Assembly: GCA_938015445.1 (NCBI GenBank)
Contig: CALLPE010000024.1
Span: 1 to 64,000, forward strand
Direction of reading: 5' to 3'
DNA from: an uncultured Pirellulales bacterium
GTDB lineage: Bacteria; Planctomycetota; Planctomycetia; Pirellulales; Thermoguttaceae
DNA length: 64,000 nt
Under the pieces are notes generated by a model, which had not been told where the DNA came from, made no database searches, and saw nothing but the letters and a program-made list of their open reading frames with translations. Positions 46,869 to 49,693 of the stretch are shown in pieces. A program made the translations under genes and the position numbers. How positions within the stretch are numbered: position 1 is the stretch's first letter; each line of letters begins with the position of its first letter.

Positions 46869-47437
46869 GGCACGCGCCCGAAGGCTTGACCGGCGCAACG
46901 ACATTATGCCGCTCTCGAACGCGCGGCGGTCTTTTGGCAGGCTCCCCGGCAGATTTTCCCGCGTGCGGCTTGTCGTTTTATCGAACTCTCGGCAGGGTGC
47001 CTGCACACTACATAGTTGAATCCCGGAAGTGTGCCTGCGCACCAGATAGAGAGACGCCCGCAGATTCCCAGTGCGCGACGTAGTAGAAGGCCCGGCGAGT
47101 TCGGTTTACCCAACGTCGTCGAACACCCAGCGGCTTTTGCTGCGGGGAGTCCCGCGGCCATGCGTCTGCAAGCCTGGGCACGCTGGAGCCTGTTGTCCGA
47201 GCCTCCAAAAAACGACCTTTTCTGGCAGTGTACCGCTAACACGGCGGTTAGCCGAACCTTTTTTGTTTCTGTTTTGTTAAGGCCTCTGATGGTCCTGGTG
47301 CCCAGGCTGATCGATAGGGGGATTTGAATCTCCACCTCCGGCCGATAATCTTCTGGCCGGTTTGTGGCAATGCTTACAGCAATGTGTTACAACAAGCACG
47401 GGGCTTACGCACTAATGATACCAGCACGGGTGGCGCG
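46869..47437. other. Long spacer downstream of smpB
   Basis: About 570 bases with one tandem duplication (46988-47055). I searched both strands for tmRNA or tRNA ends and found none. A tRNA-like phrase near 47318-47335 does not fold. The upstream part of the following open frame is unlikely to be coding. Confidence 0.45.
46988..47055. repeat. 34-bp tandem duplication
   Basis: Two adjacent copies at 46988-47021 and 47022-47055, best seen as gggtgcctgcacac and tgtgcctgcgcac. About 25 of 34 positions match. Confidence 0.65.
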
Positions 47438-49693
47438 ATGCAAAGCAGTCGCTATCCTCGCCCGGGCCACCGACTGGCGCCCAACACGCTTAGAGAGCTG
47501 CTCCTAGTGCCTTTGCCCAAGGAGTTTCGCAGTTTGCCTGGCGCGTCGGGCATGACGCTTGCCGACCTGGATGAAAGGGTTTGGGAGCGATTCAGCCAGT
47601 CGGATTGTCGCAAGCTGGCCGAAGCCGTGGTGCGGCAGGTGGCACGGGCGGTTCGCACCAGTAATCCGATCGGCGGCCGGCGGGTGCCTGCGCTACCGCG
47701 CGGGCTGACGCTAGCCGACCTGAATCTGGAGGTGCGCACCTTGCGCTGTCTGGCCGCAGCCGGCATACACCAGCGACCGCAGGACTTGCATTTGTTCACC
47801 ATCGATGGGCTGTTGTCGCTACGTGGTTTTTGGGCTAAGTCGCTGGTAGATTTGCTCACCGCGCTGGAGTATGTGATCGATCATCCCGAAGCCCGTCAGC
47901 GCCGCCGCGCCGAAGCTTTAAGATCGCTGAAGCATCTGCGCACCGGGCATCGTTACCCGCGCCCAGGGCAGCGTCTAGCGCCCGTCACGCTTAAGGAAGT
48001 GCTGCTCGACCGTGCGCCGGCGAAACTGTTGCGAGCGACGCCATTGGCCGGCGCGCGGCTTTGCGATTTGGACGAATCGGTCTGGAAGCACTTGCCACCG
48101 GCTACCATCGCCCGGCTGGCAAAGTTGATAGTGGCGCGCAGCGCCAATTGCGTCCATCACCGGCAATTGCTCAAGCGGCGCGTGCCCCCGCTGCCTGTTG
48201 CCGTCAAGCTGGACGACTTGCACTTGGAAACGCGGACTTATAACTGTCTGGCGCGAGAGGGGCTGGCCGACCGGTTGGCCCGTCTTAGCAAGTACACGAT
48301 CGGCGACTTGCTGCGCATCCGCTCGTTTGGCGTAAAGTCGTTGGTCGATCTATTGACTGCTTTGGAAAGCGTGGTCGCGCGAAAAGGCAAGCTCGACCGT
48401 CGGCTTACTACAGAAGCCAAACGCTTGGCCGCCACTCCTGGTGCCGTGGAAATATCTTTCGCCGATCCGCGGCTGGGTGGTTTATTGCGGGCGATGGACC
48501 CGGAGGCCAACACCGTGGGCCAGTTGGTGAACCGTCTGCTACGCCGCCGCATCGATCCGGTCGATCCAGACCGGCTGTGCCACCAAATGCGACAGTTGCG
48601 CCAGCAGATCGCGGCTTTGGGAAGACTTCCACTGGAGGAAGAACTCAAACAGGTATTCGGGGCGGAGGCCAGCCAGCGCGATCAGTCCATCGTGGCACAA
48701 TACTACGGTTGGGACGGGCGCGGCAGGCGGACGCTGGAACAGTTGGGCCGCAAGTTCGGGCTGAGCCGCGAGCGCATCCGACAGGTGTGCCTGAAGGCCG
48801 CTCGCAGAATTCGCCAGACGCCGGCAGCCACGCCGGTGCTCGACAGAACGCTCGACTGGCTGCGCACCTGCAAGTTGCCGCTTCCGGTATCCGAGCTTCA
48901 AGCGAGGCTCGACGCCACCGGGCTGACCGCGGGAAGAATCTCGCTGGAGGCCGTTCTCGAAGCAGCAAAGCTTCTGGGCCGAAAACCGCCGCTGTCCATC
49001 GTCCAGGTCGGTTCAACAGCATGGGCCGTTCGCCCTGAAACGGCAGCATTGCCGGGCATGGTGGTGACTGCCGTGCGCCGGGTAGCAGGCAACTATGGTG
49101 CAGCTACGCTTGCTCAGCTTTGCGCCGTTGTCGAGGAAAAGGCCGGAAAACGTGTGGATCGCAGTCTGGTTTGTGCCGTACTGGACACATTGCCGGGCTT
49201 CGCTTGGCTGGACTCCCGCCGCCGGTGGTTTAAGGTGGAGTGTTTGCCCCGCTACGGATTGGCGTACATGATAAACAAGGTTCTCGCGGTGGCTGAACGC
49301 ATCGACGTCGGCGCTTTGCGCGACGCCCTCGCCCGACGCTCCACTGACCGCCGGCCGCCACCGCAGCACGTCCTGCTGGAGTTTTGCAGGCACATGCCAC
49401 AGGTGCGCGTCGCTGGCAGTCAGGTATGGGGCGATCCGCCGCAGGACTGGCGCAAGTTCCTTTCAGGCACTGAGCGGGTGATAGCACACGTGTTGCACAA
49501 GCATGGTCCCGTGCTCAGCCGCGGCGAACTGGAGCGGATGTGCGGCGCCCTGGGCGTCAAACAGGCCAGTCTTAACGTCATGCTGGCGATCTCGCCAGTG
49601 GTGGTCCACCTGGGCCGCAGTCGCTATCGACTGGTCGGCTGCGGCGCTGCAATGTCGCGGCAAGCCAAAACGCGAAGGCCGGTTCCACGATAA
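47438..49693 (+). CDS. Tandem alpha-CTD-like / sigma region-4-like fusion protein
   Basis: A 751-residue protein with no annotated function that I know. Residues 1-150 and 172-315 are an internal duplication: each half begins RYPRPG and RLAP, continues with LADLDE/LCDLDE and ends in an RNA polymerase alpha-CTD-like helix-hairpin-helix (91-145, LEVRTLRCLAAAGI and LLSLRGFWAKSLVDLLTALE; 257-311, LETRTYNCLAREGL and LLRIRSFGVKSLVDLLTALE). At 398-462 lies a sigma-70 region-4-like helix-turn-helix: RTLEQLGRKFGLSRERIRQV. Residues 465-740 look like several winged-helix or HARE-type modules (TLDWLRTCKLPLPVSELQ, CAVLDTLPGFAWLDSRRRWF, ELERMCGALGVKQASLNVML). The start at 47438 has GGTGG four bases upstream. 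A role in transcription control is inferred. Confidence 0.8.
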   Translation: MQSSRYPRPGHRLAPNTLRELLLVPLPKEFRSLPGASGMTLADLDERVWERFSQSDCRKLAEAVVRQVARAVRTSNPIGGRRVPALPRGLTLADLNLEVRTLRCLAAAGIHQRPQDLHLFTIDGLLSLRGFWAKSLVDLLTALEYVIDHPEARQRRRAEALRSLKHLRTGHRYPRPGQRLAPVTLKEVLLDRAPAKLLRATPLAGARLCDLDESVWKHLPPATIARLAKLIVARSANCVHHRQLLKRRVPPLPVAVKLDDLHLETRTYNCLAREGLADRLARLSKYTIGDLLRIRSFGVKSLVDLLTALESVVARKGKLDRRLTTEAKRLAATPGAVEISFADPRLGGLLRAMDPEANTVGQLVNRLLRRRIDPVDPDRLCHQMRQLRQQIAALGRLPLEEELKQVFGAEASQRDQSIVAQYYGWDGRGRRTLEQLGRKFGLSRERIRQVCLKAARRIRQTPAATPVLDRTLDWLRTCKLPLPVSELQARLDATGLTAGRISLEAVLEAAKLLGRKPPLSIVQVGSTAWAVRPETAALPGMVVTAVRRVAGNYGAATLAQLCAVVEEKAGKRVDRSLVCAVLDTLPGFAWLDSRRRWFKVECLPRYGLAYMINKVLAVAERIDVGALRDALARRSTDRRPPPQHVLLEFCRHMPQVRVAGSQVWGDPPQDWRKFLSGTERVIAHVLHKHGPVLSRGELERMCGALGVKQASLNVMLAISPVVVHLGRSRYRLVGCGAAMSRQAKTRRPVPR

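Follow-up and report, generated by a model that had tools for sequence, protein, structure and literature searches.

A planctomycete protein joining duplicated RNA polymerase alpha-CTD units to a sigma region 4-like helix-turn-helix, from an uncharacterised family

The analysed stretch of DNA, here called the window, comprises 64,000 nucleotides of a contig from an uncultured Pirellulales bacterium (Thermoguttaceae), and contains an open reading frame for a 751-aa protein that joins alpha-CTD, sigma region 4-like (sigma-4) and winged-helix modules in one chain (Table 1). The reading frame is open, its ATG start agrees with the start of its relatives, and over aa 2-736 the protein is 52% identical to a relative from its own bacterial family. 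The protein is real and conserved, being one of an uncharacterised family of such fusions. The neighbours of the window copy are housekeeping genes, including purE-like (AIR carboxylase), mtnA-like (IF-2B/MtnA-type isomerase), lipA-like (lipoyl synthase), smpB and MacB/FtsX-type ABC transporter genes. No operon partner common to the family emerged from an all-against-all comparison of neighbourhoods, and no RNA element or tRNA was found near the gene. The approximately 570 bases from smpB to the gene (window 46869-47437) gave no Rfam or tRNA/tmRNA match.

Table 1. Features of the 751-aa protein and their positions in the window
Feature	Position	Strand	Basis
ORF: (YPRPG module + alpha-CTD) x2, linker, sigma-4 HTH, winged-helix array	47438..49693	+	Pfam, relatives
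Repeat unit 1 (aa 5-150): YPRPG helical module + alpha-CTD 1	47450..47887	+	46% identical to unit 2; unit tree
Alpha-CTD 1 (aa 91-144)	47708..47869	+	PF03118 above cut-off; residue map
Repeat unit 2 (aa 171-316): YPRPG helical module + alpha-CTD 2	47948..48385	+	Family alignment
Alpha-CTD 2 (aa 255-310)	48200..48367	+	PF03118 above cut-off; residue map
Linker (aa 317-397), conserved motif FxDPRLGxLLRxxD at about aa 341-354	48386..48628	+	Family alignments
Sigma-70 region 4-like HTH (aa 398-462), recognition helix SRERIRQ	48629..48823	+	PF04545, PDB, Foldseek, column counts
Winged helix 1 (aa 464-531)	48827..49030	+	AF2 single-sequence model, pLDDT about 70-85
Probable winged helix 2 (aa 538-600), conserved GFxWLDxxxxWF	49049..49237	+	Helices partly modelled; conservation
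Probable winged helix 3 (aa 607-665)	49256..49432	+	Conservation; low-confidence model
Probable winged helix 4 (aa 675-734)	49460..49639	+	Conservation

For the N-terminal part, an earlier note on this DNA had proposed tandem alpha-CTD modules, and two stretches do exceed the Pfam cut-off for RNA_pol_A_CTD (PF03118; E=4.9e-15, 55.4 bits versus a cut-off of 23.8), each of them also when matched at the level of the genome; alpha-CTD chains of the PDB match aa 255-312. The repeat is nevertheless not an alpha-CTD alone, as that note had it, but a unit of about 145 residues in which a new helical module starting RYPRPGxRxAP precedes the alpha-CTD. The two units are identical at 66 of 144 positions (46%), with a score of 257 versus a shuffle maximum of 15. 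In the unit tree, all first units of the same bacterial family form one group (97/94) and the second units cluster with the single units of short paralogues, apart from the unit 1 clade, so that the duplication is old and shared. As the single-sequence model of unit 2 was too poor for a test of the fold (mean pLDDT 50, no meaningful structural match), the alpha-CTD assignment rests on sequence profiles.

The DNA-contact surface of these alpha-CTDs is retained in part and not as a whole. Residues are numbered by the E. coli alpha-CTD sequence, which strongly matches the alpha subunits of the genomes searched. Among 27 alpha-CTD modules, the equivalent of R265 is retained in all 27 and the K298 position is K or R in 25, while G296 is retained in 20, N268 in 16 and N294 in none. 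In the window protein, alpha-CTD 1 keeps the equivalents of R265 and K298, with N268 replaced by R and G296 by W, and alpha-CTD 2 keeps those of R265, N268, C269, G296, K298 and S299 and not that of N294. In the alpha-CTD of E. coli RNA polymerase, R265 and N294 enter the minor groove and K291/K298 contact the backbone (PMC7822876). Given the pattern at N294 and N268, DNA binding by the modules may be weaker or different. Besides RpoA, the genome of the window also encodes a 464-aa TPR-like protein bearing two alpha-CTDs (L088) and a 113-aa free-standing alpha-CTD (L100), both with counterparts in several other genomes searched. Extra alpha-CTDs are thus frequent among these relatives, and against that background the fusion is less unusual. 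An alpha-CTD-like C-terminal end was also seen in the 166-aa product of gene 68 of Mycobacterium phage Zenteno07 (L114:1186-1686; family profile E=1e-12).

The sigma region 4-like helix that had been suggested was borne out by Sigma70_r4 (PF04545; E=2.9e-7, 30.3 bits versus a cut-off of 24.1, aa 412-460) and by sigma-4 chains of the PDB, which match about aa 398-462 (best E=1.2e-7). The structural comparison agreed: an AlphaFold2 single-sequence model of aa 395-736, confident for sigma-4 and the first winged helix (pLDDT mostly 70-89), was searched with Foldseek and sigma-A region 4 was ranked first with a probability of 1.00 and a target-normalised TM of up to 0.80, the E-values being above 0.001, probably because sigma-4 is a small part of the model. 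In the recognition helix, E445, R446, R448 and Q449 are each conserved in 18 of 18 sequences and R444 in 17 of 18, and the helix matches that of the four RpoD-like sigma factors encoded in the window's genome (TRERVRQ, TRERIRQ, TKERIRQ). In sigma-70, the recognition-helix residues aligned here contact the -35 element. Features specific to the family are a cysteine that follows RQ[IV] and the motif YGW. The structural matches include PDB 3n97, in which alpha-CTD and sigma-4 lie together on UP and -35 DNA.

Behind sigma-4 there is probably an array of winged helices. The several such modules proposed at the outset stand on unequal footing, as the first is modelled at pLDDT about 70-85 in the order helix-helix-helix-strand-strand and winged helices 2-4 are probable from sequence pattern and weak tandem winged-helix matches; the weaker non-sigma Foldseek matches include the tandem winged-helix proteins SelB, RPC62, ESCRT-II and UFL1. 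The window ORF stops about 17 codons after winged helix 4, whereas its close relatives run on into a domain of about 130 aa. This C-terminal domain has been lost in the window copy, and no frame-shifted remnant of it was found downstream of the ORF. Two other members (G040 and G204) likewise end before it.

Even with these domains, the protein does not belong to the sigma factors or to the alpha subunits, because sigma regions 2 and 3 and the alpha-NTD are all missing from it. With respect to the sigma-70 family, the region 4 HTH is present and region 2, which serves core binding and -10 recognition, is absent (no Sigma70_r2 match in Pfam), region 3 likewise not being found; a sigma factor identity was rejected on this basis with Pfam and NCBIfam. 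With respect to the alpha subunit, the alpha-CTD is present by profile and the alpha-NTD, which serves dimerisation and beta/beta' contact, is absent by the same two databases. The NCBIfam RpoA and sigma-factor models match the protein only at their CTD and region-4 ends. It has been considered that the protein is bound to RNA polymerase, with its sigma-4 docked on the beta flap and its alpha-CTDs replacing or competing with those of the polymerase, as an anti-sigma-like decoy or in a remodelled holoenzyme. Its domains normally sit on polymerase, and many sigma-4/beta-flap complexes are among the Foldseek matches; however, neither alpha-NTD nor sigma-2 is present to anchor it on the core, and among the best-conserved positions of sigma-4 are the ones that align with DNA contacts, so that such a polymerase-bound factor appears quite unlikely.

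The family is patchily distributed within the order of the window. When 60 relatives were searched with the protein, 21 had matches, in some cases weak and sigma-only. A profile of the part behind sigma-4 matched 21 of 397 genomes from the order, almost all of which belong to the bacterial family of the window, and two of 392 genomes in a sample of the phylum. A long and a short, one-unit paralogue occur together in several genomes (G009, G015, G029). The number of alpha-CTDs varies from one to three across relatives: the short class has one unit, G204 has one unit then two further alpha-CTDs, and G623 (L123:7298-9574) has three YPRPG/alpha-CTD units and a winged-helix segment with no sigma-4. 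The protein of G751 (L071:7736-9124) also has no sigma-4, and consists of one YPRPG/alpha-CTD unit, a winged-helix segment and the C-terminal domain. As the proteins of G751 and G623 are without sigma-4 and the recognition helix of the G040 member is degenerate, reading of a -35 element cannot be essential throughout the family. A phage origin was rejected, since phage records yielded only sigma-4 or alpha-CTD fragments and scans of viral contigs yielded no relative.

What the analysis shows is the domains of the protein and their order, with most aligned DNA-contact residues conserved and sigma regions 2-3 absent. The reading that we favour, and to which we give an even chance, is that the 751-aa protein is a stand-alone promoter-type DNA-binding regulator, and not a sigma factor, because both domain types pass curated thresholds, RERxRQ and R265 are conserved, and no sigma region 2 or 3 or alpha-NTD is present. 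The absence of a conserved operon partner fits an orphan regulator. DNA binding, the target sequence and the effect on transcription are what we infer here: the sigma-4 helix would read a -35-like (TTGACA-like) element, the alpha-CTD units would grip the A+T-rich minor groove beside it, and the winged helices would extend or stabilise the footprint. One chain would then represent the upstream half of holoenzyme promoter reading, minus the parts for core binding and DNA melting. The simplest consequence would be the occupation of a subset of promoters, at which RNA polymerase would be competed with or modulated; we lean towards occlusion rather than recruitment, because nothing anchors the protein to core polymerase. 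The domains read in the earlier note are correct, and the largely retained DNA-contact residues support promoter-type DNA recognition. HhH and HTH folds are also found in repair, replication and defence proteins, which counts against a regulator, as does the varying number of alpha-CTDs. A broader proposal, possible and rather doubtful, is that a single-chain copy of the UP and -35 reading surface of RNA polymerase, competing at housekeeping-type promoters or at those of invading DNA, has been repeatedly assembled and varied (one to three alpha-CTDs) in the window's phylum and in Actinobacteria.

The gene context of more distant relatives brings in phage defence. The gene for a YPRPG/alpha-CTD-like/sigma-4/winged-helix protein of the same class (G775, L124:6461-8704), whose alpha-CTD-like part is recognised solely by the family profile, sits in a phosphorothioate-defence island with matches to SspA, SspB, SspC (E=0), SspD (E=3.6e-136), PbeC, PbeA and DndB, where it lies between SspBCD and PbeC/PbeA with DndB nearby. 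A sigma-4 relative on a Rhizobium plasmid, named 'sigma factor-like HTH' (L112:4548-6842), adjoins PbeA (E=1e-245); its locus also holds a RelA/SpoT-domain protein and a CxC DNA-modification small protein. A Microbacterium homologue adjoins UvrD-type and DUF4011 helicase genes, and in PglW of BREX type 2 three winged helices stand behind an alpha-CTD-like domain (PMC12839542). It may be, therefore, that these proteins are defence-type DNA sensors or regulators, with alpha-CTD, sigma-4 and winged helices as the scanning and regulatory module of phosphorothioate or BREX-like systems, and that the window copy is a chromosomal offshoot. The support is real for the cousins but not for the window clade: the window's neighbours are housekeeping genes, ten neighbours of six close relatives gave no PADLOC match at 1e-10, and beyond alpha-CTD and sigma-4 the homology to the defence-linked examples is suggestive only. 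A defence setting of the window copy and its close relatives thus found no support, and a defence role of this kind for the window protein seems unlikely.

On Pseudomonas megaplasmids (L109:4965-6044, L110:4938-6011, L113:4058-5008), a sigma-4/winged-helix gene without alpha-CTD has a conserved place between dnaE and dnaG. This position would suit a DNA-structure or replication/partition protein in which HhH and HTH folds are used outside transcription. However, these relatives are without alpha-CTD units, and the RERxRQ helix of the window family is the same as that of the cell's own RpoD-type factors, which makes such a role very unlikely.

If the protein is indeed a stand-alone regulator, bacteria would have turned the parts by which RNA polymerase itself reads promoters into an independent regulator, and its target sites would be predictable beforehand from known promoter rules. 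The related architectures in phosphorothioate defence islands suggest a possible use in the control of, or recognition by, phage defence. More generally, proteins that databases list under no more than a generic name turn out to share an architecture that is coherent as well as varied. No paper describing an alpha-CTD/sigma-4 fusion was found in the open-licence literature, which is no proof of absence; the earlier note knew of no characterised homologue and none was found here, yet homologues do exist, both as a clade of close relatives and, more widely, as comparable architectures spread over two phyla.

Beyond its own class, the window protein has alpha-CTD/sigma-4/winged-helix counterparts of similar make-up elsewhere in the phylum and also in Actinobacteria. 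A 734-aa ORF of G587 (L125:1-2202) has three alpha-CTDs and sigma-4, no YPRPG module being seen, and its winged helices are probably of HARE-HTH type, with matches below the cut-off. In Actinobacteria, the NCBI name 'sigma factor-like helix-turn-helix DNA-binding protein' is carried by a Microbacterium protein (WP_197491897.1), and an Arthrobacter locus (L128) is similar and unannotated. These share with the window protein a sigma-4 HTH above the Pfam cut-off, an alpha-CTD upstream (Arthrobacter E=8.5e-6, above the cut-off; Microbacterium E=6.9e-4, below it) and a multi-domain C-terminal half, and differ from it in having one alpha-CTD and no detected YPRPG module. The window protein itself has the feature behind the NCBI name, as its sigma-4 HTH is part of a multi-domain chain that lacks regions 2-3. 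Profiles of the alpha-CTD unit of the window family and of the actinobacterial set, which includes G775, match at E=6.4e-7. The winged-helix and C-terminal halves align weakly (hhalign E=0.016 and 0.0086, low probability), and common descent of the whole architecture is for this reason suggested only.

Plasmid proteins of Piscinibacter (profile E=9.7e-43) and Pseudomonas pBASL58 (E=5.9e-38) are homologous to the window family through sigma-4 and the winged-helix array; unlike the window protein, no alpha-CTD was found in the Pseudomonas and Piscinibacter proteins, and that of Piscinibacter runs on into a C-terminal region resembling the domain lost in the window copy. With the sigma-like MzaA of the anti-phage system MZA, only the sigma-4 segment is shared (PADLOC E=6e-5, 67 of 683 profile positions matched), and none of the neighbours examined was an MZA gene. 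PglW, compared by description only, shares the succession of an alpha-CTD-like domain and three winged helices, and differs in its NERD nuclease, kinases and iSTAND, with sigma-4 not described for it; the window protein has no Pfam match to NERD nuclease or kinase domains. With RpoD region 4 and the alpha-CTD of RpoA, the window protein shares the individual domains and most aligned DNA-contact residues, whereas it has no core-binding domains, carries both parts in one chain and has its alpha-CTD duplicated.
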